Assembly (NCBI GenBank): GCA_022769665.1
Contig: JALEIR010000050.1
Coordinates: 1-64,000 of the forward strand
Length of the DNA stretch: 64,000 bases
Source of the DNA: Lachnospiraceae bacterium
GTDB lineage: Bacteria > Bacillota > Clostridia > Lachnospirales > Lachnospiraceae
Direction: 5' to 3'
This document shows positions 11,489 to 52,012 of this stretch, in pieces. The translations under genes were made by a program, and so were the position numbers. Each line of letters starts with the position of its first letter. Within the stretch, counting starts at the first letter, position 1. The notes under the pieces were generated by a model. That model saw only the letters and a program-made list of their open reading frames with translations, made no database searches and was not told where the DNA came from.

Positions 11489-11504
11489 AAAAGGAGAGAT
11501 GACA

Positions 11505-12752
11505 ATGACTAGATTTGAATCTGCAAAGGAAATTTACGCTTCATACGGTGTTGATGTGGAAGAAGCGATGAGCCGGCTTTCGGAAGCTCCTGTGGCGTTG
11601 CACTGCTGGCAGGGTGATGATGTTACCGGCTTTGACCATGATGGCCCTTTGACCGGAGGCATTCAGACCACCGGGAATTACCCCGGAAAAGCAAAAACTC
11701 CGGAACAGTTGATGGCGGACATGGACAAAGCGATGAGTCTGATGCCCGGAAAAAAGAAGTTGAATCTTCATGCATCTTATGCTATTTTTGAACTCGGAGA
11801 ATTTGTGGACCGTGACAAGCTGGAACCGAAGCATTTTGCAAAGTGGGTGAAGTTTGCAAAGGAGAGAAATATGGGAATTGATTTTAATCCCACTTTCTTT
11901 TCTCATCCGAAGGTAAAGGACGGTCTGACACTGACCAGCCCTGACTCTGAAACCAGGAAGTTCTGGATTGAACACGGAAAAGCATGTATCCGTATTTCAC
12001 AGTATTTTGCCGAGGAGACCGGAATTCCCTGTGTCATGAATATCTGGACGGGGGACGGATTCAAGGATGTACCGGCAGACAGAATGGGTCCGAGAATGAG
12101 ATATAAGGATTCCATTGAGCAGATTCTGTCAGAGCCTTTTGACAAGAACAAGGTGAAGCCTTGCGTGGAGTCAAAGGTGTTTGGTATCGGTGTGGAAGCC
12201 TATACTGCAGGCAGCGCTGAGTTTACTTTGAGCTTTGCTGCAACCCATGAGGGGTGTCTGCCGCTTATGGATAACGGACATTATCATCCTACCGAGGTGG
12301 TTTCCGATAAAATTCCGGCATTGTTATGCTTCTATCCGGAGATTGCCCTGCACATCACCAGAGGCGTCCGTTGGGACAGCGATCATGTCCTGCTCTTGGA
12401 CGATGAGACAAAGGAGATGGCAAAGGAAATCGTGCGCTGTGACGGGCTGAACCGCGTCTACATGGCACTGGATTATTTTGATGCAAGTATCAACCGTGTA
12501 TCTGCGTGGGCGATGGGCTTCAGAAGCTGGCAGAAGGCACTGCTTTCAGCCTTGTGTACTCCAAACGAAGCGTTAAGAAAGCTGCAGGATGAGGCGGCCT
12601 TTACTGAACTTATGGTGGAACAGGAAGCCGTCAAATTGCTTCCGCTGGGCGATATCTGGAACGAGTATTGTGAACGACAGGGCGTAGTTTCGGACAGAGA
12701 GTTTTATACAGAAGTGAAAAAGTATGAGGACGAGGTCCTGTTAAAAAGATAA
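11505..12752 (+). CDS. rhaA: L-rhamnose isomerase
   Basis: A 415-residue enzyme, the usual length for the family, converting L-rhamnose to L-rhamnulose. The ATG at 11505 is eight bases after AAGGAG; an ATG two codons earlier is too close to that site. Family motifs include VALHCWQGDDVTGF near the N-terminus, LNLHASYAI, and the metal-binding region with MDNGHYHPTEV and RWDSDHVLLLDD. A Mn2+/divalent TIM-barrel active site is expected. Middle gene of the rha operon; rhaD follows 14 bases later. Confidence 0.96.
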   Translation: MTRFESAKEIYASYGVDVEEAMSRLSEAPVALHCWQGDDVTGFDHDGPLTGGIQTTGNYPGKAKTPEQLMADMDKAMSLMPGKKKLNLHASYAIFELGEFVDRDKLEPKHFAKWVKFAKERNMGIDFNPTFFSHPKVKDGLTLTSPDSETRKFWIEHGKACIRISQYFAEETGIPCVMNIWTGDGFKDVPADRMGPRMRYKDSIEQILSEPFDKNKVKPCVESKVFGIGVEAYTAGSAEFTLSFAATHEGCLPLMDNGHYHPTEVVSDKIPALLCFYPEIALHITRGVRWDSDHVLLLDDETKEMAKEIVRCDGLNRVYMALDYFDASINRVSAWAMGFRSWQKALLSALCTPNEALRKLQDEAAFTELMVEQEAVKLLPLGDIWNEYCERQGVVSDREFYTEVKKYEDEVLLKR

Positions 12753-37879: not shown

Positions 37880-40096
37880 ATGAAACGTAACAGATTAACG
37901 GCAGCAGCCGTAAGTATATTTCTCGTGGCGGGAATATTGTGCGGATGCGGCAGAGAAGATGGCAGTGACAACATGCTTCCGGATGTGAATCCGGGAAGAT
38001 ATGTGGAAGAAGAGGTTGAGTGGCCGGAGGCGTGGAACGGATGGACGGTGAAGCAGCTGTTTACAGAGGAGGAGAAACTGCATCTGCTTTTGACAAAGGA
38101 AAAGGATGAATGTTTGATGCTCCAAGAGTGGGAGAAGGATGGAGACAGCTTCTCCGAGGTGACGGGAAAGTGGCTGAATACGGTATTTCTTCCTGCCAAA
38201 AGCTGGATGAACCTGAAACTGATGAGGGACGGCAACGGTGTACAGTATTTATTCGCGGGGTATGCGGAAGAAGATATCTATAAATGCCATTTATGGAGAA
38301 GCGACGGTGAAAGTGTTTTGGATATCACACCCGAGGAATGGACAGTGCCTGATGAGGAATGGGGTTGTTATGAGTATATCAGCGGTATTACAGCACTGGA
38401 TAACGGTACTCTGGTGGCAAACGGCAGCAGAACCGTGGACATTCTGTACGGAGAAGACGGAAGTGTACTGGACAGCGAACAGACAGAGGGGGATTACGAC
38501 GAAAATGTGTTGTCCGATGGGGAGGATATCTATCTGTTTTCCGCGGATTACAGTGGTGCAATTACGGAGATTGAAAGGAGACCGGGCGGTAAAAGAGAAA
38601 ATGTAGAAAGGATTCCTTTCGGACAGAACAGTTCTGCAGGAGTTATGCTGTGTGTAACGAAAAGCGGTACTTTGATTTCTGCAGGTGCCGACGGTATATA
38701 TAGATGTGAGGCCGGCCGGGAAGACTGGGAAAAGTTGATGTCAGGGTCAGAAACAGATTTTTCGCTGTCCGGCTGTTGGTGTACCGGTCTGACAGCACTG
38801 GAGAACGGAATCATATACGCCGCTTTTGCCCGGGAAGACGGTACAACAAAGCTGATAAAATATGAGTATGATCCGGATGCTGTGACCCGGGTAACGGAGA
38901 CGCTTAAGCTTTATGCGGTGAAAGAAAGCTTTTTGCTGCAAAATGCAGTTGCATTGTATCACAGGGAGCATCCGGAAGTGGCAATTGAGGTGGAATACGG
39001 TTACACTTATAATGATATGTATTCTGACAAGATACCCGACTATACGGAGATTTATCAAAAGCTGAATACCATGCTGATGAGCGACGAAGCACCGGATATC
39101 CTTGTTTTGGATCATCTGGATGCGGATTCCTTCCGGGAAAAGAGACTGCTTGTTGACGTGAATGATGTGGTAGGTCCCATGGAGGAAAACGGAGAACTGT
39201 TGAAGGGGATAACAGGAAGCTATTTGCAAGAGGACGGCACAAGATATACAGTGCCATTGCAGTTTGCTTTCACGTATATTACAGGAAGAGACTGCACTGT
39301 AGAAAATATGACTTCTCTGGAGAGTCTGGCCGAATTCTTGCGTGAAAAGAATGAGAGTTATCTGGGCCCTCAAACAGTAGAAGAATTGGTAGACAAATTT
39401 TATCCGTATTTTTGTGGGGATATTGTGAATGATAAAAAGCTGGATAAAGAGGTGCTGCGGGATAAGCTGGAGGCGCTGAAGGAAATAGCGGACAACAGCG
39501 GTATTGTGACGCAGCATGACGACAGCAACGGCAGAAACGGACATTGCTTTAATATGTGGGATTTGGCTTCTCGTACCAAGCTGGCATTGGATAAGGCAGA
39601 CGGATTTAACGGTTGCATGTTCGCAGTGGCGATTACGGATTATATTAAGGGAGAATTTACAGCTTTTGAAAACAGTTTCACTCCTATGATACAGATGGGA
39701 ATTTGCGCAAAGAGCAGCCATCAGGATACAGCAAAGGACTTTTTAAAATTTGTGTTGTCGGAGAAGGTTCAGGGAACGGATTATTATGAAGGGTTTCCTG
39801 TGAATACAAGCTGCCTGGTTGCACTGGCAGCTGCGGACCGCTCCGATGCTGCGGCTTCCACCACAATTACTACAGAGGACGGAGGAGAAGTGGAATTCAA
39901 TATTATGCCATATTCCCGGGAAACAGCGCAGAAGCTGCTTGACATATGTAACGGCTTGAATAAGCCTGTTGTGGAGGATGCCAAGATCAGAGAGGTGATG
40001 ATAGAAAGTCTTGGCGGTTATTTGTCCGGCAGTGAAAACGTGGAAGAGGTGTTGGATAAAATGGAGGCAGGGTTGAAAATGTATCTGGCGGAATAG
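37880..40096 (+). CDS. large solute-binding lipoprotein with N-terminal propeller-like region
   Basis: A 738-residue lipoprotein: signal peptide and lipobox to Cys23 (GILCGC). Residues ~50-345 are a repetitive beta-strand region that resembles a beta-propeller. Residues ~345-738 look like a family 1 extracellular solute-binding protein (LKLYAVKESFLLQNAVALYH, LMSDEAPDILVLDHLD, CAKSSHQDTAKDFLKF). Normal family members are 400-450 residues. No permease or ATPase gene is next to it, so it either borrows a transporter or works as a surface sensor. ATG follows AAGGAGGTAACATATT. Confidence 0.8.
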   Translation: MKRNRLTAAAVSIFLVAGILCGCGREDGSDNMLPDVNPGRYVEEEVEWPEAWNGWTVKQLFTEEEKLHLLLTKEKDECLMLQEWEKDGDSFSEVTGKWLNTVFLPAKSWMNLKLMRDGNGVQYLFAGYAEEDIYKCHLWRSDGESVLDITPEEWTVPDEEWGCYEYISGITALDNGTLVANGSRTVDILYGEDGSVLDSEQTEGDYDENVLSDGEDIYLFSADYSGAITEIERRPGGKRENVERIPFGQNSSAGVMLCVTKSGTLISAGADGIYRCEAGREDWEKLMSGSETDFSLSGCWCTGLTALENGIIYAAFAREDGTTKLIKYEYDPDAVTRVTETLKLYAVKESFLLQNAVALYHREHPEVAIEVEYGYTYNDMYSDKIPDYTEIYQKLNTMLMSDEAPDILVLDHLDADSFREKRLLVDVNDVVGPMEENGELLKGITGSYLQEDGTRYTVPLQFAFTYITGRDCTVENMTSLESLAEFLREKNESYLGPQTVEELVDKFYPYFCGDIVNDKKLDKEVLRDKLEALKEIADNSGIVTQHDDSNGRNGHCFNMWDLASRTKLALDKADGFNGCMFAVAITDYIKGEFTAFENSFTPMIQMGICAKSSHQDTAKDFLKFVLSEKVQGTDYYEGFPVNTSCLVALAAADRSDAAASTTITTEDGGEVEFNIMPYSRETAQKLLDICNGLNKPVVEDAKIREVMIESLGGYLSGSENVEEVLDKMEAGLKMYLAE

Positions 40097-41495: not shown

Positions 41496-41768
41496 GTAAT
41501 TATTTATGAAGTGAAACGTTTACTTCCGGATATTGTTTTTTGGCCTGTGTATACCGATTATAACTACAATGAATGGAATGAAACCATTAAGTATGAATAT
41601 GCCGGCCAAGCCGGTAAAGTCGGCGGTAAAGTATTATATGTTAATTCCTTTTGTATAGATAAAGAAACAGATGAGATTGCAAAAGGCGGTTCTGTCCTTT
41701 TTCGTGATGGAAATATTGATAAGGAAATTCCGTCAGGAAAAGAGGGTGTACTTGTTGTCGAAGTTTAG
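41496..41768 (+). pseudogene. carbon-nitrogen hydrolase, C-terminal fragment
   Basis: About 90 codons are open after a TGA at 41493. The stretch LPDIVFWPVYTDYNYNEW, then YEYAGQAGKVGGKVLYVNS and GGSVLFRDG looks like the end of nitrilase/carbon-nitrogen hydrolase proteins, followed by the usual GKEGVLVVEV. The N-terminal two-thirds, with the Glu-Lys-Cys triad, is absent, and the GTG at 41511 has no ribosome binding site. It sits just beyond the tRNA-Leu terminator, so it is a truncated relic. Confidence 0.65.
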
Positions 41769-41821: not shown

Positions 41822-41856
41822 TTGCAATCATTGGATAATTATGTTAATGTTTATCC
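41822..41856 (+). promoter_or_regulatory. promoter with overlapping Fur-box-like inverted repeat
   Basis: TTGCAA (41822-41827), 17-bp spacer, TAATGT (41845-41850). Across it lies GGATAA ... TTATCC (41833-41856), an A/T-rich inverted repeat resembling a GATAAT...ATTATC Fur site. Located 36-70 bases before the ferric-type binding-protein gene, it would fit iron repression. Confidence 0.4.
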
Positions 41857-41891
41857 GAAAATATATAAATTATACGGGTGGAGAAAAGGTT

Positions 41892-42899
41892 ATGTTTAAG
41901 AGAGTTGCTGCTATCGGGTTAAGTTTATTATTCGTGCTGGGAAGTACTGCCTGTGGTAAGAAACAGGAAGAAGTTGTTGTATATACGGCGGTGGATCAGG
42001 TGTTTGCCGACGAAATATTTGCAATGTTTGAGGAAGAAACGGGAATAAAGGTGAGGGCAGTATACGACACAGAGGCAAATAAGACAACAGGTCTTACCAA
42101 TCGTATTATTGCGGAATCTGAGAGAACGGTATGTGATGTGTTCTGGAATAACGAATTTATTCAAACAATTGATTTGGAGAAGAAAGGTATGCTTCAACCA
42201 TATGTATCTTCGGAAGCTAATACAATACCTGACTACTATAAGGCAGAAAACGGAACATGGACAGCAATAGGAGGACGTGCAAGAGTATTTTTGGTTAATA
42301 CAGATTTGCTGACGGAGCAGGAATATCCGGACAGCATTTATGATTTTGTTAACGGCAAGTACGAAGGAAAAGAGCTGGCGATTGCTTATCCTATGTTCGG
42401 AACAACGAGGACCATGGCAGCAGCCATTTACGCACAGTTGGGAGAGGAAAAAGCGCGTGAATATTTTCAGACTATGGCAGACAACGGTGTGTGCGTCGTT
42501 GACGGAAATTCGGTAACAAAGGATATGGCGGCATCAGGTCAGGTTGCGATAGGTTTTACCGATACAGATGATGCCAAGGAGGCAATCTCCGATGGTGCAC
42601 CGGTTGTAATGGTATTTCCGGATCAACAGGACGACGGTATGGGAACCCTGATGACACCCGCTACGGCAGCAATCATTAAGGATGCTCCCAATCAGGAAAA
42701 CGCAAAAGCGTTTGTTGATTTTATCCTTTCTGAAAAGGTTGAGAGAAAACTGGTTGAGATGGGCTTTTTTGACATTTGCTGTAGAGATGATATCTCTGAC
42801 AACGGTATTAAGGGAATGGATTTAAATCTGGAAGACATTTATGATTATTTAGAGATTGCCAGTAAAGATATGGAGACGATTTTTTCCAAGGCACAATAA
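41892..42899 (+). CDS. ferric-type ABC transporter substrate-binding lipoprotein
   Basis: A 335-residue lipoprotein of the Fbp/Afu binding-protein family. Signal peptide with lipobox to Cys21 (GSTACGK), followed by VVVYTAVDQVFADEIFAMFE, the normal first strand, and CDVFWNNEF, VNTDLL, TPATAAII. The ATG at 41892 follows GGTGGAGAAAAGG; in-frame ATGs from 41799 have no site. It should bind ferric iron or a related oxyanion/phosphonate-like ligand outside the cell; tyrosines typical of direct Fe3+ binding are not obviously conserved, so the ligand is uncertain. Confidence 0.9.
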   Translation: MFKRVAAIGLSLLFVLGSTACGKKQEEVVVYTAVDQVFADEIFAMFEEETGIKVRAVYDTEANKTTGLTNRIIAESERTVCDVFWNNEFIQTIDLEKKGMLQPYVSSEANTIPDYYKAENGTWTAIGGRARVFLVNTDLLTEQEYPDSIYDFVNGKYEGKELAIAYPMFGTTRTMAAAIYAQLGEEKAREYFQTMADNGVCVVDGNSVTKDMAASGQVAIGFTDTDDAKEAISDGAPVVMVFPDQQDDGMGTLMTPATAAIIKDAPNQENAKAFVDFILSEKVERKLVEMGFFDICCRDDISDNGIKGMDLNLEDIYDYLEIASKDMETIFSKAQ

Positions 42900-42928
42900 A
42901 ATAGTTCTGTATTAAGGGGAGCTCATGA

Positions 42929-44452
42929 ATGAGAAATAGGAAGGATGCAATTCGCATAATTGGTTTTGTACTATATCTTGCAGTAGTGTGGCTGCCCTTA
43001 TTTTATGTATGTAAAAAATCGGAATGCGAGATAACACTCCCGGACGCAAGACGGATAGGGCTTTTTGTAAACAGTATAAAGCTCGGCGGTTGCACGGCAA
43101 TATTGGCATGCCTGTTGGGGGTTCTGGCGGCTTTGTTCCTTCATAACAGTTTTTTGGCAAACAAGTGGTATCGTTATTTCTTTGTGATATTGATGCCTGT
43201 TCCATACTATGTCTATGCATTGTCATGGATGTATCTGATGAGGCTTTTGGCTGTTATTTGGCCGGAGGTTTTAAAGTATTCCGCACAAGGTTTCGGAGCA
43301 TGTCTGTTCGTGGAAACCATGACATACATTCCGATTGCCACTTTGCTCGAATTGGCAGCATTAGAAATGAGAAACCGGCAAACGGAAGAGATGGCGTTGG
43401 TTTATAAAAGTCCGATAAAGGTACTGATGAAAAATACAATTCCGGAAGTATTGCCTTATATTGTGGCAGCAGCAGGTATCATATTTATTTTATCCGTGAC
43501 TGATTTTTCTGTGCCGTCCATGTTCCAATATAATACATACATGCTTGACATTTATTCTGTATACAGCAGAACCGGAAGTGTGGCGCAGGCATATGTAATG
43601 GCCTTACCGTTGTCTGTTTTGCTGCTGCCGTTATTGTCTTTTGTACAGCAGGCGATTAAGAAAATCAGTAAACCGCAGAGAAGTGAACGGTTTGTACCAC
43701 AGAGATACCCCATGTGGCTGCAGGGAAGTATGGTCTGTGCTTTTGGAGTACTGGTTTGCCAGGTGTTCCTTCCGATTCTTATTTTTGCAGTAACAACCGG
43801 CAGTTTGAAAAATGCCCGGAAATCTTTTGAAATGATTTATGAGCAGATAGGTACAACGCTGGTAATTGCATTACCGGCAGCAATCATAGCCGTATTATGT
43901 GCAGCTTTGGCAGCAGGATTTCTGGCAGATAGGGGAAACGGTGTGCTCTGGATGGCGGCATTGGGAACAATGGTGCTTCCGGGTGCATTACAGGCAATGG
44001 GGTTGTTGGATATGGTGAATGGCTCTGTCGTCCATTGGATGAGTACAACGGTGCTTATGCCTGCATTTGGATGTGCGCTGCATTATATGCCTTTTGCTCT
44101 TATTGTATTGACGGGTACAATAAAGCGGGCAGATAAACAGCGAAGAGAGCTTGCTATATTGTACGAAAGGCATTGGTATCAGCATTTGCTGTTAGAACTG
44201 GGAATGTTTTTGCCCGGCATCCTTTGTGCAATTGCGTTGGTGTTTTTCCTGTCCTTTGGGGAAGAGGGAATTGTATTGGTATTAATGCCTCCCGGTGCCG
44301 AAACAGTATCTGTTAAGATATACAATTATCTGCATTACGGAGCTTCCGAATATGTATCGGGCTTCTGTCTGATGGTAACTCTTTTTATGTTTTTGATTGA
44401 AGTGGTTTTGTTATGGATGATGAGGAGAAGGTATAGAGGACGGCATGAGTAA
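42929..44452 (+). CDS. ABC transporter permease, double-domain (FbpB type)
   Basis: A 507-residue membrane protein with two binding-protein-dependent permease halves, about twelve helices. The first half has LGVLAALFLHN and the EAA-like EMALVYKSPIKVLMKNTIPEVLP; the second half has LAAGFLADRG and RRELAILYERHWYQHLLLELGMFLPG. Duplicated permeases are normal for ferric importers. The ATG follows AGGGGAGCTCATGA. It starts 29 bases after the binding protein, and its end overlaps the ATPase start by eight bases. Confidence 0.9.
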   Translation: MRNRKDAIRIIGFVLYLAVVWLPLFYVCKKSECEITLPDARRIGLFVNSIKLGGCTAILACLLGVLAALFLHNSFLANKWYRYFFVILMPVPYYVYALSWMYLMRLLAVIWPEVLKYSAQGFGACLFVETMTYIPIATLLELAALEMRNRQTEEMALVYKSPIKVLMKNTIPEVLPYIVAAAGIIFILSVTDFSVPSMFQYNTYMLDIYSVYSRTGSVAQAYVMALPLSVLLLPLLSFVQQAIKKISKPQRSERFVPQRYPMWLQGSMVCAFGVLVCQVFLPILIFAVTTGSLKNARKSFEMIYEQIGTTLVIALPAAIIAVLCAALAAGFLADRGNGVLWMAALGTMVLPGALQAMGLLDMVNGSVVHWMSTTVLMPAFGCALHYMPFALIVLTGTIKRADKQRRELAILYERHWYQHLLLELGMFLPGILCAIALVFFLSFGEEGIVLVLMPPGAETVSVKIYNYLHYGASEYVSGFCLMVTLFMFLIEVVLLWMMRRRYRGRHE

Positions 44453-45068
44453 AGCGGTGATTGAAGTAAAGAATTTATGTAAGAGCTATGGGGAAAAAGC
44501 AGTGCTGAATCAGTTCTCGCTTTCCGTGGAAGAGGGAGAATTGGTTGTGCTTCTTGGCGAAAGCGGATGCGGGAAAACGACACTTCTTAGAATTCTGGCG
44601 GGACTGGAAAAGGAAAACAGCGGTAAGGTTATGATAAACGGTCGTTTAATGGAGGATAAAGTATCTCCCAACAAGAGGAACATTGCAATGGTTTTCCAGG
44701 AACCCGCATTATGGAACCATATGTCTGTAGGCAAAAATATTGCTTACGGTATGGAGAAAAGGGATGACAAGAAGATATGTGATATAATGAATGCATTGGG
44801 AATCGAAGGACTGGAGAACCGCTATCCCGAGGAAGTGTCGGGAGGTCAGGCAAAAAGAGTGGCTTTGGCAAGAGCTTTGGCCGCAGACAGGGATATTTTG
44901 TTTTTGGATGAACCGTTGTCAAATATTGATGAGGTAACAAAGAAAAAGATATTAAAATATATTGATGAAAATTACAAGGGAAAAAAGACCATTTTATACG
45001 TTACCCATAGCAGAACGGAAGCTGACTTTTTTGGCTGCAGAAAAATCAGGATGGATGCGGGGGAGTAA
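44445..45068 (+). CDS. ABC transporter ATPase
   Basis: A 207-residue ATP-binding protein: Walker A GESGCGKTT (~38-46), Q-loop VFQEP, signature VSGGQAKR, Walker B ILFLDEPLS and switch His in YVTHSRTEA. It lacks the C-terminal TOBE domain found in most ferric importer ATPases (usual 340-350 residues), so it is a minimal ATPase. The start overlaps the permease gene, and the propeller gene follows two bases after its stop, showing tight coupling. Confidence 0.93.
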   Translation: MSKAVIEVKNLCKSYGEKAVLNQFSLSVEEGELVVLLGESGCGKTTLLRILAGLEKENSGKVMINGRLMEDKVSPNKRNIAMVFQEPALWNHMSVGKNIAYGMEKRDDKKICDIMNALGIEGLENRYPEEVSGGQAKRVALARALAADRDILFLDEPLSNIDEVTKKKILKYIDENYKGKKTILYVTHSRTEADFFGCRKIRMDAGE

Positions 45069-45070
45069 AA

Positions 45071-46141
45071 ATGCGGCGAAATCGTATATTTACCTTTGTT
45101 TTATATATTTCCTTTGCGTTACTCATTGTGATTGCATTTATTCTTTCTTTGTTTATTACGGAAAATAAGGAGAAGACATCTCCGCAAAAGGAAGATTTCG
45201 TGGTGTTGAAAGAAGGCAAGGAAATTTCCGCGATATACTATGACGGTACAAATGTCTGGATAGGCGGTAATGACGGGGTGACCGTTTACAATGCGGACAC
45301 TATGGAAGAGGTTCGGTATCTGGAGGAATTTAAGCTCATATACTCTGCGGAGATAACACAGACTCCTGATGGAACAGTCTGGATCGGACATGAGGATGGG
45401 TTGACGGGAATTCAGGATATTGCCGGAGAAAAGAGAGTAGATTTTCATTATCCCGATATTCCCAAAGGACGTATCAATACAGTGGAATGGGATGGGGAAA
45501 GGCTGTGGGTCGGTACATATAACGGAGGAGCCGGTCTGATATGTGAGGATACCGGCTGGAGAGTTGACAGAATATACAATCGGAGCAATGGGTTGTGCAG
45601 TGATTCGGTAAATGTTATCTGCAACGCAGGTGAGAGCCTGTGGTTTGCTTCTTACCTGGATACAAAAAACGGGGGAATCAGTATCCTGGAAAAAGATGAA
45701 TTTCAATATCTGACATCAGAGGACGGAATTCCGCATCCTTATGTTACTTCATTGCAATATTTGGGTGACAATAAGATGCTGGTGGGAACGGGATATATGG
45801 ATACCGGGGGACTTGCGTTGGTACAAAAAGCGGAGAATGGCTACAAGGTAACGGAAACTTATTCTGTGGAGGATGGACTGCCGGGAGAAAAGGTAAGACA
45901 GCTCTTCCTGGACAGTGAAGGGTTCTTATGGATTACAACGGAGTATGACGGGATTGTGATTCTAAATTATGAAAGAGACGGACTGAAGAAGGATTTAAAC
46001 GGAATATATTTGACAGAGGGAAACGGTTTGTCGGATAATGAAATAAAGTGTATCGCAGAGACACCGCAGGGTTATTGGTTAGGCGGAAAATATGGGCTGA
46101 CGCTGATTAATCGTTCTTTTGTCAGAGAGAAATTACAGTAA
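45071..46141 (+). CDS. membrane-anchored beta-propeller protein (Reg_prop-like)
   Basis: A 356-residue protein with one N-terminal helix (~8-28) and a large extracellular part. The repeats have the two-component-regulator-propeller signature: NVWIGGNDGVTVYN, TVWIGHEDGLTGI, RLWVGTYNGGAGLI, SLWFASYLDTKNGGISI, FLWITTEYDGIVIL, YWLGGKYGLTLI, about seven blades. Unlike the usual proteins with this propeller there is no kinase or cyclase behind it. Two bases after the ABC ATPase stop, so the propeller probably works with the importer or with the next protein. The ATG is preceded by GCGGGGGAGTAAAA. Confidence 0.85.
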   Translation: MRRNRIFTFVLYISFALLIVIAFILSLFITENKEKTSPQKEDFVVLKEGKEISAIYYDGTNVWIGGNDGVTVYNADTMEEVRYLEEFKLIYSAEITQTPDGTVWIGHEDGLTGIQDIAGEKRVDFHYPDIPKGRINTVEWDGERLWVGTYNGGAGLICEDTGWRVDRIYNRSNGLCSDSVNVICNAGESLWFASYLDTKNGGISILEKDEFQYLTSEDGIPHPYVTSLQYLGDNKMLVGTGYMDTGGLALVQKAENGYKVTETYSVEDGLPGEKVRQLFLDSEGFLWITTEYDGIVILNYERDGLKKDLNGIYLTEGNGLSDNEIKCIAETPQGYWLGGKYGLTLINRSFVREKLQ

Positions 46142-46163
46142 AATACCGAAAAGAGGAATCAGG

Positions 46164-49100
46164 ATGAAAAAAAGTAGTGCTTTTCAGAAAACAATAAGGT
46201 TTGATGAGTTTATACTTGCTTTGAAGTACTTTATGAAGAATAAAGGGATTACGCATGTGAGCGGCCTTTGCAACGCGGAACTTTTGAGAAAAAACTTAAC
46301 GGAGGAAGAGCTGTCTGCGATTTTTTTCAGTGCACTGAAACATAAGGTGTTTGTAAAACAGGGGAGTGACGTTCATATCAATTTTGATTTGTATCGTATT
46401 ATGAATGCCTTTTCTCAGTCCAAAAACGTTGTTACCGTCCACAAACCGTCTTATGAAAACGAAAAAATGATTTCATTTGCCAAGGCGGATGATACATGGA
46501 TTGTTTTGTTGCAAAATGCCGGAAAGAATGAAGTAAGCATTATGGCTGACAGCAGCCTGGATAAACTGTATCAGATAGTAGCGCCTGAGCTGAAGAAAAA
46601 GGATAAAAACAGTCAGTTTCATCCTAAAAAGCTAAACAAACAGTTGGAAAAGATGGACTTGGCAGTGCGATTTCAGGAAGCTTATGAGTATCAGCTCGTA
46701 ATGCTCGCACTGGAAAACAGCACAGGCAGACAAACGGGAGAGGCCGTTCTTTTTCATGTGGGAAAAGAATCTTTCAACGTACTTACGGGAGCAATTGAAG
46801 AGAATCGGATAGAAAGTTTTCCGGCGGAAGCATTGGATGAGAAGGTAAAGGAATGTCTGATTGCAATGACCCGGGACGGCGGACCGGACAATCCGGACGG
46901 GACAGATAAAAACAATCGGACAGGCACCGATTATAAGCGAATGAATGAGGAAGAAGAGCCATATACCAAATTCAGCTTTCAACAGCTTAGTGCAAACCGG
47001 AGCTTTCCCCACAGTGTACCGCAATTGTTGAAACTACAGCTTAAAAATTGGGTAAAACAGCTGACGAATTGGAAAACCTGGGTAGTAATGCTGGTAATTC
47101 AATTGCTGTTTGCCGCAGCGGTTTTGATTTGGAATATGTATGGGATGTGTTATCTGAACGACACATTTCGTATTTCATCCAATGCCTTCTGGGGAAATGC
47201 AACAGCATATTTGTTTGCAGGTACCATTAGAAGAGGCAATGATATAAAGGGTCTGTCTGTATTTACAAAGGCATTTGATACAGTGCTGCTTGCAGGTTCC
47301 TTTTATTGCCTGCTGGGAATCGCATTCAGAAGTATGATTGGAACTATTGTCAAAGGGAAATTTATGAATTCCGTTGACAATATGCTGCGTTTTCCGAGCC
47401 ATATGAAGCAATACAGCAAAAAGGCCGGAAAAGGTATTGTTCATTATATCTGGTTAGGTGTATTGATAGCGGCACCCATAGGATTTCTATTGTGGAATCC
47501 GTTTACGGTAGCTCTTTTGGCAGTAATGCTGTTTTTTTCCTGTGTGAAAGCAGACAGCAGTAACATATCCGTCCCGGTTATGCTGTTCCGCAGTGCTTCC
47601 GGATACAAAAGGGTGATGGAAGGAAGAAAAAAGAAGCCGTTGTTTGCGGATGTTCAGTTACGGCTTTTCGGTATCAGTATCGGATTTTTCATTTACACAT
47701 TTGTAAATATTCTGGTGTGGGGACTTTTTGATTACAACTTCTGGGTAAGGCTGGTATTTACGGTATTGCTCATGATTCTGGCGCTTTTTGGGTTGGGGAT
47801 TATTAAAGTTAACAAGCCGCAAAAGGTTGCCGCGTGTCTGGCGGTGCTTGTTGTCTGCAGTGTTCTCGTGATGCTGTCCCGGAATGGTATGATGGTATAT
47901 GCGGATGACGGCGGCTGGTCCGAATCGGGAGGAACTCTGGCAGGGCTTTTTGCAAACGCCGGTTTTGCAACTATATTAGGGCTGTCGGCACTGCTTGCCG
48001 TTTGCACGCTGGGTGGTTCCCTTCTGGCTGCAGGCATCATCGGAGGCGTTGTCGGAGCCGGTTCTTTTGTGTGGAGCTGTGCGACGGAAACCGGCAGGGA
48101 AACGGCAGCGGATTTTATGCTGGGACAGTATAGTCCTTACGGAGGGGATTCAAAAATTGCAGCCGGACTTAATTTTGCAGTCGGTCTGGTCCCGGGAATC
48201 GGGGAAATATGGGGAGTCGCATCATCCACAAGAGATGCCGTATATAACTTCTCCCACGGAAATGAATTGTCCGGTATTTTTAATATTGTGTGCGGAGGAC
48301 TCAGCCTGAAGGGATTGGATGACGGCTTGAGGCTGGCAAAAGATGGACTGGTAAACGCGGCAGAAAAGACCGTGTTAAAATCTGTGGTTAAAAAGGAAGT
48401 AAAGAAGAATGTAGATAATTTGATATCCGGAATAACCGGAAGCGCGGACAATGTGGCGACGGCAGCAGCGGGAAGCGCGGACAATGTGGCGACGGCAGCG
48501 GCGGGAAGCGCGGACAATGTGGCGGCGGCAGCAGCGGGAAGCACGGACAATGTGGCGGCGGCAGCAGCGGGAAGCGCGGACAATGTGGCGGCGGCAGCAG
48601 CGGGAAGCGCGGACAATGTGGCGGCGGCAGCAGCGGGAAGCGCGGACAATGTGGCGGCGGCAGCAGCGGAAAGCGCGGACAACGTGGCAGGAGCAGCCGG
48701 TGCGGCAGCGCAGACTCATAAGCCTGGTGTTGTGGAAAAAGTGGTATCCGGTGTAATCACCAGAAAAACAACGAAAAGAATTGTTAATACTTTGCTGGGC
48801 GGACAAACCAAACAGGTACAACAGAAAATGGTGGATAATATTGTGTCCGGTATTTCCGGTAACATCAAACAGGGCGTTGCAGGGGATGTCATACAGAAAG
48901 CGGATGATTGGTTGAACGGAAGCAGTACGGAAATGCCGTTTGTACAACAGGGCACTCAGGGGAATATGGAAGTTCCGGACAGCAATGTCGGCAACTCTAT
49001 GGGGGAGAGTACCGGAGCGAACAACATAAATGAGTTTGGCAGTACTGAGACGAAGGTACATAATACAGAAAGTATACCGGAGGATGGCAGTATAAACACT

Positions 49101-49331
49101 GACGGCATAAATGCTGACAGTGAGGCATTTTCGCCGGAGGAAACGGCTGAAGTATTTGAGGCGATGACAGACGATGAGATTAGAAATCTACTGGATACGA
49201 TTGCGGAACAGTTCGGAAAAAGCGGAGAACAAATGCCGGCACTTTGTGCGGAGCTAAAGCAATATGTTGATTCTGTGGGAGAAGGTTCCATTGACAGAAA
49301 TGTTATCAAATACATTTTGATGAAAGGGTGA
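46164..49331 (+). CDS. large multi-pass membrane protein with Ala-rich 11-residue repeats
   Basis: A 1055-residue protein of no family I can name with confidence. The ATG at 46164 follows AGAGGAATCAGG; a TTG at 46119 overlaps the propeller gene. Residues 1-~245: soluble alpha/beta domain; ~302-325, 370-395, 425-461, 499-547, 554-571 and 593-638: hydrophobic segments; ~650-720: glycine-rich segment with LVPGIGEIWGVASSTRDAVY, similar in style to pre-toxin domains of polymorphic toxins; 759-846: eight 11-residue repeats around GSADNVAAAAA; then a Ser/Thr/Asn-rich linker and an acidic helical C-terminus. No toxin domain is visible at the end. Last gene of the ABC-propeller operon. Confidence 0.75.
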   Translation: MKKSSAFQKTIRFDEFILALKYFMKNKGITHVSGLCNAELLRKNLTEEELSAIFFSALKHKVFVKQGSDVHINFDLYRIMNAFSQSKNVVTVHKPSYENEKMISFAKADDTWIVLLQNAGKNEVSIMADSSLDKLYQIVAPELKKKDKNSQFHPKKLNKQLEKMDLAVRFQEAYEYQLVMLALENSTGRQTGEAVLFHVGKESFNVLTGAIEENRIESFPAEALDEKVKECLIAMTRDGGPDNPDGTDKNNRTGTDYKRMNEEEEPYTKFSFQQLSANRSFPHSVPQLLKLQLKNWVKQLTNWKTWVVMLVIQLLFAAAVLIWNMYGMCYLNDTFRISSNAFWGNATAYLFAGTIRRGNDIKGLSVFTKAFDTVLLAGSFYCLLGIAFRSMIGTIVKGKFMNSVDNMLRFPSHMKQYSKKAGKGIVHYIWLGVLIAAPIGFLLWNPFTVALLAVMLFFSCVKADSSNISVPVMLFRSASGYKRVMEGRKKKPLFADVQLRLFGISIGFFIYTFVNILVWGLFDYNFWVRLVFTVLLMILALFGLGIIKVNKPQKVAACLAVLVVCSVLVMLSRNGMMVYADDGGWSESGGTLAGLFANAGFATILGLSALLAVCTLGGSLLAAGIIGGVVGAGSFVWSCATETGRETAADFMLGQYSPYGGDSKIAAGLNFAVGLVPGIGEIWGVASSTRDAVYNFSHGNELSGIFNIVCGGLSLKGLDDGLRLAKDGLVNAAEKTVLKSVVKKEVKKNVDNLISGITGSADNVATAAAGSADNVATAAAGSADNVAAAAAGSTDNVAAAAAGSADNVAAAAAGSADNVAAAAAGSADNVAAAAAESADNVAGAAGAAAQTHKPGVVEKVVSGVITRKTTKRIVNTLLGGQTKQVQQKMVDNIVSGISGNIKQGVAGDVIQKADDWLNGSSTEMPFVQQGTQGNMEVPDSNVGNSMGESTGANNINEFGSTETKVHNTESIPEDGSINTDGINADSEAFSPEETAEVFEAMTDDEIRNLLDTIAEQFGKSGEQMPALCAELKQYVDSVGEGSIDRNVIKYILMKG
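48438..48701 (+). repeat. eight tandem 33-bp coding repeats
   Basis: Units of 33 bases start at 48438, 48471, 48504, 48537, 48570, 48603, 48636 and 48669. Units 5-7 are identical in coding sequence; unit 4 has ACG for GCG, units 1-2 have ACG in the seventh to eighth codon, and unit 8 is degenerate. They encode GSADNVAAAAA and stay in frame in the large membrane-protein gene. Near identity points to recent expansion by slippage or unequal recombination. Confidence 0.95.
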
Positions 49332-49378: not shown

Positions 49379-50896
49379 GTGACTGATGAAAATCGCACCT
49401 ACATCGCAATTGACCTCAAGTCCTTTTATGCTTCCGTGGAGTGTGTGGAACGGGGGCTTGACCCGCTGACAACCAATCTTGTTGTGGCAGATGCCGGCCG
49501 GACAGAAAAAACCATCTGTCTGGCGGTGTCTCCTTCCTTGAAGGCTTATGGTATTCCGGGGCGTGCGCGGTTGTTTGAAGTTGTGCAAAAGGTAAAACAG
49601 GTTAACGCAGGGCGGCAATACCGGGCACCCGGACGGAAACTCATCGGTGAATCATCATCGGATATTGAATTGAAGGCTCGTCCGGAGCTGGCAGTCGCAT
49701 ATGAAGTGGCTGTGCCGCGGATGGCGCATTATATCAGGTACAGCACCCGTATTTACAATATTTATTTAAAATACATTGCGCCGGAGGATATCCACGTTTA
49801 TTCCATCGACGAGGTGATGATGGATGTGACTTCGTATTTGAAAACATATAACATGACAGCACATGAACTGGCTATGACTATGATGAAGGATGTATTGCGG
49901 GAAACAGGCATTACTGCAACCGCAGGTATCGGTACAAACCTTTATCTCTGTAAAATTGCCATGGATATTGTGGCGAAACATGTTGCACCGGATAAGGACG
50001 GTGCCCGTATTGCGGAGCTTGACGAAATATCCTACAGACAGTTGCTTTGGGACCATCGTCCCCTGACGGATTTCTGGCGGGTGGGCAGAGGGTATGCGAA
50101 AAAGCTGGAACAGCAGGGGATGTATACCATGGGTGATGTGGCTCGATGCTCTGTTCAGAACGAAGAATTGCTGTACCGTATGTTTGGCATCAACGCTGAA
50201 CTGTTGATTGATCACGCATGGGGCTGGGAGCCGTGTACCATGGATATGATTAAGGCATATAAGCCGGAGACAAATTCCTTCAGTTCCGGTCAGGTGCTTC
50301 ATGCTCCTTACAGCTATGAAAAAGCCCGACTGGTGGTGCATGAGATGGCGGAGGCTGTTGCACTGGATTTGGTGGATAAAGGTATGGTAACAGACCAGAT
50401 GGTATTGACCGTCGGTTACGATATCGAATGTCTGAAGAATCCGGAAATCAGCCGGAAATACAAGGGTGAGGTCACTACGGACAGTTATGGACGAAAAATT
50501 CCCAAACATGCCAACGGCACAGTGAACCTTGGACGTCAAACATCCTCCGCCCGACTGATTTCGGACGCAGTTTTGGATTTGTACGATAAAATAGTCAATC
50601 AGGATTTGCTGGTACGCCGACTGACAATTACGACAAATCATGTGGTGGATGAAAAGAATGCAGCGCAGAACCGGGCAGAGACCTGCGAACAATTAGATTT
50701 GTTCACGGATTATACGTTGTTGGAAGAACAGCGGAAAACGGAAGAGGAATCTCTGGCCAGAGAACGCAAAATGCAGGAAGCAATGCTGGACATCAAGAAG
50801 AAATTCGGTAAAAACGCTATCTTAAAGGGCATGAACCTACAGGATGGTGCAACTGCCAAGGACAGAAACAATCAAATTGGAGGACACAAGGCTTAA
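49379..50896 (+). CDS. Y-family DNA polymerase (DinB/UvrX-like)
   Basis: A 505-residue translesion polymerase. Catalytic carboxylates: AIDLKSFYASVE (residues 9-20) and YSIDEVMMDV (~139-148). A beta-clamp-binding motif EQLDLF lies at about 438-443, and the C-terminus ends RNNQIGGHKA, typical of the clostridial/phage UvrX-like group. The GTG follows AAGGAGG by seven bases. I see no GAAC-N4-GTTC LexA box upstream. With the downstream YolD-like gene it makes the known polymerase-YolD damage-tolerance cassette, interrupted here by a membrane-protein gene. Confidence 0.93.
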   Translation: MTDENRTYIAIDLKSFYASVECVERGLDPLTTNLVVADAGRTEKTICLAVSPSLKAYGIPGRARLFEVVQKVKQVNAGRQYRAPGRKLIGESSSDIELKARPELAVAYEVAVPRMAHYIRYSTRIYNIYLKYIAPEDIHVYSIDEVMMDVTSYLKTYNMTAHELAMTMMKDVLRETGITATAGIGTNLYLCKIAMDIVAKHVAPDKDGARIAELDEISYRQLLWDHRPLTDFWRVGRGYAKKLEQQGMYTMGDVARCSVQNEELLYRMFGINAELLIDHAWGWEPCTMDMIKAYKPETNSFSSGQVLHAPYSYEKARLVVHEMAEAVALDLVDKGMVTDQMVLTVGYDIECLKNPEISRKYKGEVTTDSYGRKIPKHANGTVNLGRQTSSARLISDAVLDLYDKIVNQDLLVRRLTITTNHVVDEKNAAQNRAETCEQLDLFTDYTLLEEQRKTEEESLARERKMQEAMLDIKKKFGKNAILKGMNLQDGATAKDRNNQIGGHKA

Positions 50897-50917
50897 TGTC
50901 CGGGAAGGTGAAGTATT

Positions 50918-51574
50918 ATGTTGGAGAAATATGACTTGCCGGTTAAATTTACGGAAGAAGAGCGAAATGCTTATGCCGCATGGGGAATCAAAAAGCAGAA
51001 GGTGATGATACCTTATGTCATTATTGTTTTGCTGATTGATATATTTTCAATAACAATCGGCTGTATGCAAATATGGGATATTCGTAGTACCGACAGCATT
51101 CTCTTTCATATTATTCTGGATAGTGGCTGGTTGGAGAGTGTCTGCTATGTGCTGGCGGTTTGTCTTACAATTATGATTTTGGGACCGCTTAATTGGTTGC
51201 TTGACCGAATATGGAAAAAGCCTGAGGAACCGAGATGGCTGCGGATTGAAATTTCGGAAGAGGGAGTCCGGGTCAAGGTGCTTTCAGGGACAGAACGGGA
51301 AGAGATTCTGTCATCCGAAATGTATACGTGGGGGGAGGCAGAAGCGATTCTGGATTCCGAAAACAATGCAGTTCTGGCACAGAAGTGTTGGATGAAGATA
51401 GGAGAAAATACCATTGAAAATATTTATCCTGAGGAAAACAGACATCCGTGGATGGATTATCCCAAAAGAAAGGTAAAGGGAATAGACAGTGTAGAAAAAC
51501 TTTGCCGTATATTAAAGGGGTATCAGGCTTCTTTGATGGAAAAGAAAATGGAACGGAACTGGAAGGAAGCGTAA
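50918..51574 (+). CDS. two-helix membrane protein of unknown function
   Basis: A 218-residue protein with two hydrophobic segments (about 26-52 and 70-93), then a soluble C-terminal domain (~105-218) of beta strands and helices (LRIEISEEGVRVKVLSG). The ATG follows GGGAAGGTGAAGTATT, 21 bases after the polymerase stop, and the YolD-like gene follows 12 bases later. I do not recognise a family. Its place between the two cassette genes suggests a linked role, but this is only positional. Confidence 0.75.
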   Translation: MLEKYDLPVKFTEEERNAYAAWGIKKQKVMIPYVIIVLLIDIFSITIGCMQIWDIRSTDSILFHIILDSGWLESVCYVLAVCLTIMILGPLNWLLDRIWKKPEEPRWLRIEISEEGVRVKVLSGTEREEILSSEMYTWGEAEAILDSENNAVLAQKCWMKIGENTIENIYPEENRHPWMDYPKRKVKGIDSVEKLCRILKGYQASLMEKKMERNWKEA

Positions 51575-51586
51575 AAGGGGAGTATC

Positions 51587-52012
51587 ATGGCCGCTATGGG
51601 AAAAGAACACAAATATGACGATATCATCAATCTGCCACACCACGTTTCAACACAGCACCCGCAGATGTCCATGATAAATCGGGCTGCCCAGTTTGCACCC
51701 TTTGCCGCATTGACCGGTCACGATGCTGCCATCCGGGAAACAGCGCGGCTGACAAACGAAAAGCCGGAATTGGACGAGTACGAGAAAGAGGTAATCAACA
51801 GCAAGATACAGATTCTGTCGGAACATTTGGGAGAGAATTATACCGTTACGATTACATATTTCATGCCGGATAACAGAAAAAACGGCGGATTCTATGTGTG
51901 CGTTGACGGTGTAGTAAAAAAGATGGATAAATACGAACATACGATTATCCTGACAGACGGAACGGGAATACCCATAGACAATATCCTGGAAATTGAAATT
52001 CAGGGAGATTGA
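51587..52012 (+). CDS. YolD-like protein
   Basis: A 141-residue protein of the YolD-like family, which accompanies Y-family polymerases in Firmicutes genomes and phages. Visible signature: YDDIINLPHHVSTQHPQMSM, then NRAAQFAPFAALTGHDAAI, followed by a beta-rich half with GTGIPIDNILEIEI. The ATG follows AAAAGGGGAGTATC; a second ATG three codons later is possible. Likely a partner or regulator of the polymerase two genes upstream; no enzymatic activity is known. Confidence 0.88.
   Translation: MAAMGKEHKYDDIINLPHHVSTQHPQMSMINRAAQFAPFAALTGHDAAIRETARLTNEKPELDEYEKEVINSKIQILSEHLGENYTVTITYFMPDNRKNGGFYVCVDGVVKKMDKYEHTIILTDGTGIPIDNILEIEIQGD

Follow-up and report, generated by a model that had tools for sequence, protein, structure and literature searches.

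A conserved gene set joins an ABC importer and a beta-propeller to a giant membrane protein with interchangeable C-terminal tails in Lachnospiraceae and other bacteria

Polymorphic toxins combine a conserved trafficking part at the N-terminus with C-terminal domains that are swapped between relatives. For their delivery, the available part of a survey from 2012 names the type II, V, VI and VII, PVC, PrsW, MuF and TcdB/TcaC routes (PMC3482391). As far as it is described there, the PrsW route is the nearest published analogue of the locus presented here: PrsW-dependent toxins possess a multi-helix membrane module at the N-terminus and an interchangeable toxin at the C-terminus, and extrusion and release across the membrane have been proposed for them (PMC3482391). 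These features are shared by a family of giant membrane proteins, called BIG in the following, one of which is encoded in a stretch of 64,000 nucleotides from a Lachnospiraceae bacterium (positions 1 to 64,000 of contig JALEIR010000050.1, assembly GCA_022769665.1; the whole stretch is referred to as the window). In contrast to the PrsW-dependent toxins, BIG has a signal-peptidase-like site and an EspG-like N-domain, and its companions are an ATP-binding cassette (ABC) importer, a propeller and zinc-ribbon proteins. Pfam scans with E limits between 0.01 and 1 matched no PrsW peptidase in the 29 non-redundant BIGs analysed, which include the copy of the window and exclude a decayed copy in genome G364 (L021/L030; L and G numbers are our handles for loci and genomes). 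With the RHS, contact-dependent inhibition (CDI) and LXG polymorphic toxins the family shares the conserved N-part, the swapped C-part and pre-toxin and RHS domains, but the trafficking part and the companion genes are different. Our best reading is that the BIGs are polymorphic effectors with an undescribed delivery module. We file them under the known polymorphic toxin systems and regard only the delivery module as undescribed; the literature searches revealed nothing on a combination of transporter, propeller and BIG.

In the window, all five genes lie in the same direction between 41892 and 49331. They encode a binding lipoprotein of 335 amino acids (substrate-binding protein, SBP; 41892..42899, +) of the FbpA/PhnS-type fold family with the iron-ligand tyrosine pair replaced, a fused (double) permease (42929..44452, +), the two halves of which are matched weakly by the NCBIfam models PhnV and PotI, an ATPase of 207 amino acids (44445..45068, +) with Walker A, signature, Walker B and H-loop all present, a Reg_prop beta-propeller (45071..46141, +; Pfam Reg_prop, E 4.2e-20) with a single N-terminal membrane anchor and no output domain, and BIG itself (1055 residues; 46164..49331, +), the C-terminal half of which is exchanged among relatives. 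SBP and permease genes are separated by 29 bases, permease and ATPase genes overlap by 8 bases, and gaps of 2 and 22 bases precede the propeller and BIG genes, respectively. The original prediction, made from the sequence of this stretch alone, had given the same gene identities, overlaps and gaps. It had also noted that the kinase or cyclase that normally follows such propellers is missing, and none was found here either: P0004 stops at the propeller end, and no kinase was matched among the five window proteins in a Pfam scan.

Comparison with other genomes confirmed that the five genes form one conserved system, as had been supposed from their arrangement: SBP and BIG occur in the same genomes, with a linkage far beyond chance. 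Altogether, 19 of the 29 BIGs share a locus with an SBP, which means that homologues of BIG are not found mostly away from ABC genes. A propeller but no SBP lies beside three BIGs (L058, L080, L086) and neither of them beside seven (two in L031; L078, L079, L081, L083, L085). All five genes are present at 13 loci (window, L022, L023, L024, L026, L028, L032, L033, L042, L061, L082, L084, L087), which span nine genera according to record titles and genus labels, two of them being metagenome bins with the labels Caldisericota and Nitrospirae; the predicted recurrence next to ABC genes in at least three genera was thus borne out. Of the other six SBP-bearing loci, four (L025, L027, L029, L041) are interrupted by a contig end; in L060 no ATPase gene could be found, and L059 yielded no ATPase and no propeller. 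The gene order varies, with the SBP gene first in the window, the propeller and BIG genes first in L023, and the transporter and propeller-BIG genes on opposite strands in L033 and L082. Therefore, the conserved entity is the set and not merely an inherited operon.

The same picture emerges on the level of whole genomes. Within the genus, a close SBP (E ≤ 1e-60) is present in 6 of 138 genomes (G000, G337, G388, G392, G399, G421), and these are exactly the genomes with a non-decayed BIG. Four of the six also possess the propeller (E ≤ 1e-30); in G388 and G421 the contigs stop before the position that the propeller has in the relatives. Within the class, an SBP of this type (E ≤ 1e-90) occurs in 4 of 391 genomes (G000, G446, G522, G762), again exactly the strong BIG carriers. 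For each pair of the five proteins, the distances between the 13 loci correlate with r values of 0.81-0.92, which is partly explained by shared descent, and the value of any pair was reached in 0 of 5000 permutations. By these comparisons, the linkage of the five genes is old and real.

Detection of the relatives depended on the query. The BIG of the window alone (P0005) detected relatives within the genus and in one further genome of the family. Of the eleven rows of one such search, the own row and that of G277 were kept and nine were discarded: eight matched just around the Ala-rich repeats, and that of G060 covered no more than 68 residues. The G337:C11 row of a second such search was likewise discarded, and a first contig scan with P0005 gave 54 pattern stretches, none of which was confirmed. 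A four-row alignment of the membrane core, used as a profile, detected 12 loci among the genome contigs. Profiles of the core revealed a BIG in 7 of the 138 genomes of the genus, one being the decayed fragment, four strong matches among nine rows in the 391 genomes of the class and seven among ten rows in 299 genomes of the phylum. The match of G522 had an E value of 1.3e-6 in the class search and of 6e-84 with a larger profile, which detected a BIG in 2 of 67 genomes of the order of G522. Left out of the BIG count were the weak rows of G545, G548, G649, G740 and G771 in the class search (E 2.9e-4 to 8.9e-4) and those of G954 (1e-5), G980 (2.9e-5), G1092 (2e-8) and a broken G874 fragment (C34) in the phylum search. 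Loci seen twice on the same contigs were counted once (L017/L029, L018/L022, L019/L028, L020/L027, L021/L030, L031/L057).

Carriers outside the genus include some labelled as Caccomorpha, Fournierella, Gemmiger, Lachnospiraceae, Eubacteriales, Caldisericota and Nitrospirae, and most carriers have titles of metagenome bins. The neighbourhood of L033 contains type II secretion genes (secretin, T2SSE, T2SSF, T2SSG), which supports a host with an outer membrane. L032 is a contig of 9.3 kb with a possibly wrong bin label, and its ATPase was recognized first by eye and later by profile. Plasmids and phages gave no tblastn match with P0006, the nearest relative of the window BIG, and none of 24 pattern stretches in viral contigs was confirmed. 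The decayed copy in G364 (L021:11900-12394, at a contig end) consists of the start of an SBP followed by a DDGGWSESGG piece of BIG, and indicates that the system is also undergoing loss within the genus. In G392 the five-gene set is flanked on both sides (L028:2216-3360 and 11491-12332) by open reading frames (ORFs) that by eye resemble pieces of transposases, and mobility is possible. The set is repeatedly accompanied by a small zinc-ribbon protein whose N-part is helical (L022:4224-4703, L028:7725-8120, L026:10599-10994, L082:16422-16892); at other loci zinc ribbons occur as fusions with SOL or BIG.

The most characteristic property of the BIGs is the exchange of their C-terminal halves. All 29 proteins were split at the conserved site behind the last core helix and clustered by single linkage (blastp, E ≤ 1e-5, at least 80 columns), which yielded one cluster for the N-parts and 14 clusters for the C-parts. 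The window BIG and P0006 share 30-54% identity in all but one of the 15 bins of 50 residues up to residue 750 (14% in that bin) and diverge past this point, where P0006 carries a Tox-GHH domain at its C-terminus (E 6.9e-15) and the window copy 11-residue repeats. In the latter, a Gly-rich stretch at the place expected for a pre-toxin segment (residues 651-740; 48114..48383, +), the last part of which is common with P0006 before the divergence, precedes an Ala-rich repeat (48438..48688, +; 7.6 copies of a 33-base unit corresponding to 11 residues, 96% matches) and a C-terminal tail (48689..49328, +) without a toxin recognised by Pfam. For the whole protein, Pfam gave no match above cut-off, and searches against NCBIfam, PADLOC and PDB sequences were negative at the limits applied. 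The Ala-rich repeats of the original prediction are therefore real, and its pre-toxin-like Gly-rich segment gains from two relatives with a Pfam Pre-toxin TG (PT-TG) domain above cut-off (L080, L086), but the segment of the window itself matches nothing in Pfam.

Overall, toxin, pre-toxin or RHS features were detected in 8 of the 29 BIGs. Besides Tox-GHH (one BIG) and PT-TG (two), these are HExxH in three BIGs (two copies in L031, with sub-threshold matches to DUF6782 only, and one in L033, without a Pfam match), a core fused to RHS repeats (L081 of the single-contig genome G903, E 2.6e-73) and an RHS ORF behind a short BIG (L082, E 2.3e-67). The combination of a conserved trafficking N-part with swapped C-domains that defines polymorphic toxins is thus found across all 29 BIGs, and recognised C-part domains are found in the family, though not in the copy of the window. 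The earlier view of BIG as a mere membrane scaffold for import is not supported, since the C-half is exchanged and is of the nuclease-toxin, HExxH-bearing or RHS kind in some relatives. A 109-amino-acid ORF located 14 bases behind the Tox-GHH-tailed BIG is the sole candidate for an immunity gene; the next gene behind the window BIG encodes a DNA polymerase. Some genomes combine one SBP match with several BIGs (BIGs at four places in G446, three BIG frames plus the broken fragment in G874, two BIGs in G999), as would be expected for one machine with several cargoes. From these comparisons, BIG seems to carry tails that are interchangeable and sometimes toxin-like. By eye, the tails of L078 and L079 contain hundreds of residues of a Gly-Tyr-Asp-type repeat and, behind it, a domain in which Cys, His and Asp follow each other in a peptidase-like order; the tail of L085 belongs to the same C-part cluster.

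The membrane core (residues 303-572; 47070..47879, +) is kept in all 29 copies. For the window BIG, Kyte-Doolittle hydropathy gives eight hydrophobic segments, seven before residue 580 and one after it, which is near but not identical to the "about nine" predicted originally. With the seven segments of the window transferred to 15 aligned copies, and with two short loops extended manually, Lys and Arg made up 218 of 1156 residues in predicted inside loops and 65 of 993 in outside loops, with an excess inside in 15 of 15 copies. This charge pattern suggests that the N-domain is cytoplasmic and the tail outside. Small residues at positions -3 and -1 behind a hydrophobic segment are the pattern of a signal peptidase I site, and the core of BIG appears to end in a site of this type, which reads VYA|DDGGWSESG in the window (residues 578-589; 47895..47930, +). 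In an alignment of 15 copies that was built without the pattern, [AV]xA stands directly behind the last segment in every row. Over all BIGs, position -3 is Ala (16), Val (10) or Leu (3), position -2 is variable and mostly bulky, and position -1 is Ala in 29 of 29, a figure that is partly built in, as the site was located by a pattern demanding [AVL]xA[DH]D in 27 BIGs and by eye in two. The background frequency of [AVL]xA is 2.4% of the other positions in the same N-parts. Behind the site, [DH]-D (27/29), Gly at +4 (28/29), Glu at +7 (27/29) and Gly at +9 (27/29) are conserved. This exceeds the need of a peptidase, and the new N-terminus may therefore itself be recognised.

We propose with moderate confidence that the five genes encode an effector-deployment chain, in which BIG is a membrane precursor, its tail is released, and the companion proteins gate, power or position this release. 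BIG would be inserted into the membrane with the EspG-like N-domain staying in the cytoplasm. About seven membrane helices would follow, the last of which might act like an internal signal peptide, and signal peptidase would cut behind [AVL]xA and free the variable cargo outside. The cargo would be interchangeable and, in those relatives where it is of a toxin type (GHH nuclease, HExxH-bearing or RHS), presumably toxic; in the window it would be the 11-residue-repeat tail. SBP, permease, ATPase and tethered propeller might sense a ligand other than iron and gate, power or position the release. This gating by importer and propeller would be the weakest step of the chain; the linkage, the swapping of the C-parts, the conserved cleavage-type site and the charge pattern with the N-terminus inside and the C-terminus outside are apparent from the sequences themselves. 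A more specific version is put forward only tentatively. It is possible, with the doubts prevailing, that the set encodes a kind of protein-deployment machine not described before, in which a ligand is read by an ABC-importer-type complex together with a tethered surface propeller and signal peptidase is thereby made to release toxins from a multi-helix membrane carrier. In this version some carriers contain an EspG-like chaperone, one machine serves several exchangeable, sometimes dispersed cargoes, and the system has spread patchily through clostridia and into outer-membrane bacteria.

The co-occurrence of SBP and BIG in the same genomes would also fit a producer that carries receptor and protection besides its toxin. 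Contact-dependent inhibition toxins enter via ABC permeases of their targets, and the companion importer might be such an entry receptor, through which kin sharing importer and propeller have sibling toxins recognised, taken up or neutralised. We consider this unlikely, since the companion genes are linked to BIG and vary in parallel with the membrane core common to every BIG, while the tails differ, and since the propeller has no clear place in it. The tails suggest another alternative. RHS and simple-repeat tails are also known in surface proteins, both are present here (the latter as Gly-Tyr-Asp and 11-residue repeats), and toxin-like tails are in the minority; BIG might thus serve recognition or adhesion as a surface protein, either released or displayed, that has captured toxin tails by occasional recombination. 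However, toxin export is suggested by both the EspG-like domain and pre-toxin TG, which makes this explanation improbable.

SBP, permease and ATPase with its motifs make up a binding-protein-dependent ABC transporter. In 12 sequences, all ATPase motifs were found except for the H-loop pattern, which was missed in three, and the lipoprotein Cys of the SBP is kept in 12 of 12. With the FbpA/PhnS-type importers the transporter shares the binding-protein family, the fused permease and the ATPase motifs. It differs from them by being found with BIG, by scores below the PhnS equivalog cut-offs and by an unusual set of invariant acidic residues in the SBP: the Tyr-Tyr of solved FbpA-type relatives (NNYY, NHYY) aligns with T-D-[TS]-D-D-A, in which D-D-A is invariant (12/12). 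Since the iron-binding Tyr pair of these relatives is replaced, iron is an unlikely ligand. Import of iron or 2-aminoethylphosphonate was considered and rejected, the best NCBIfam model being PhnS-like with 106 bits against a cut-off of 310 bits and the FbpA Tyr pair being lost; a defence system was rejected as well, as neither propeller nor BIG had a PADLOC match at E 0.1. The propeller should lie outside, since it follows a membrane anchor in the window and a lipoprotein-like signal in L058, and a signal of this kind is seen by eye in L060 and L032. It shares its repeats with Reg_prop sensors such as hybrid two-component systems, but is free-standing and tethered, without kinase, cyclase or regulator.

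A plain nutrient importer, accompanied by a propeller that reads the ligand and by a scaffold in the membrane whose structural tail varies at the C-terminus by drift, would agree with the intact ATPase motifs of the window, with the 21 of 29 BIGs lacking any toxin feature, and with the sub-group L024, L025, L026 and L028, where the tail is conserved to its last residues. It is nevertheless an unlikely explanation, since the GHH, HExxH, PT-TG and RHS tails and the 14 C-part clusters are hard to explain by drift and the iron ligands of FbpA are missing.

The N-domain of BIG (residues 1-196; 46164..46751, +) is predicted to have an EspG-like fold, as in the targeting chaperones of type VII secretion. 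According to the available part of a published account, the nuclease toxin EsaD of Staphylococcus aureus has an EspG-like chaperone, EsaE (PMC10653861). Compared with EspG and EsaE as described there (PMC10653861), the domain is fused here to the membrane core of the cargo in the window, L022 and L023. The BIGs of L032, L033, L082 and L083, and that of L081 according to its first 40 residues, have a short helical stretch and then a Trp-rich segment (WW.....G.WL.W.G..W) in place of the EspG-like domain; this segment is common to sequences labelled as different phyla. The EssC model TIGR03928 (cut-off 778 bits) gave weaker matches in 10 of 11 carrier genomes (best 111-139 bits per genome), and among 14 control genomes 9 had a match and 1 was over the cut-off. 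The alternative that EssC exports BIG as an aberrant type VII (ESX) substrate, with the EspG-like domain as a chaperone fused to it, is very improbable in spite of the predicted fold and the EsaE precedent as far as it is described (PMC10653861), since TIGR03928 is over its cut-off in 0 of the 11 carriers, three of them single-contig, which contradicts a Firmicutes-type EssC, and neither WXG100 nor LXG was matched by Pfam in any of the 29 BIGs.

Several observations weigh against polymorphic effectors with their own delivery module. No toxin, pre-toxin or RHS feature was recognised in 21 of the 29 BIGs, that of the window included (all scanned with Pfam), the conserved tail of the sub-group mentioned above does not look exchanged, and the only immunity candidate belongs to no Pfam or NCBIfam family. 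G874 and G999 speak against a strict unit: their transporter set lies on a different contig from the BIGs, on BIG-free stretches (L089, L090) that hold transporter and propeller together. So does the single-contig genome G903, for which no dedicated set was detected; it has only a distant FbpA-like SBP (E 2.7e-46) despite its BIG, and no propeller was found at L081 and L091, the two loci of this genome that were examined. No ATPase was found at the G762 locus and no SBP of this type in the fragmented genome G964. With regard to the fold of the N-domain, Foldseek gave no match for the BIG model at E 0.001, the best being EspG3 at 6.9e-3, and the evidence for this fold from the standalone SOL proteins is only weak. 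With a single hydropathy threshold, the number of segments before the site is 7 in three BIGs, 6 in 15, 5 in 10 and 4 in one, which leaves the helix number unsettled and lets the topology rest on the charge pattern and the last segment; the three BIGs with Leu at -3 deviate from the cleavage pattern. Finally, the original prediction was to be refuted by a terminator or promoter mapped between 45.07 and 46.16 kb: a sequence scan found no terminator-like site in the gaps separating the five genes, but one promoter-like site (11/12 positions) lies inside the propeller gene at 46010-46039, 125 bases 5' of BIG, and such sites are not enriched (25 versus a mean of 26.6 in shuffled sequence).

If the proposed chain is correct, gut clostridia and some distant bacteria would own a toxin-deployment route to which an ABC importer and a beta-propeller are dedicated and which would lie outside the delivery modes named in the available part of the 2012 survey (PMC3482391). 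Unannotated giant proteins would gain a testable function, the [AVL]xA|[DH]DGG motif together with a DDA-type SBP could serve as a marker for further effectors, and it would become testable whether a nutrient-type ABC complex can gate protein release. The EspG-like domain in genomes without a recognised type VII EssC also bears on the origin of this chaperone fold.

The surroundings of the set in the window show some further features. Just upstream (37880-40096), a lipoprotein-like protein of 738 amino acids joins a long N-part without family match to an SBP_bac_1-type binding domain. Between the terminator of a tRNA-Leu gene and the SBP gene (41511-41765), there is an open stretch of 85 residues without Pfam match, which might be the end of a broken gene. 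Directly behind BIG (49379-52012) follow the genes for the Y-family DNA polymerase (IMS), for a 218-amino-acid protein without match and for a YolD-like protein, a trio that resembles an SOS mutagenesis cassette.

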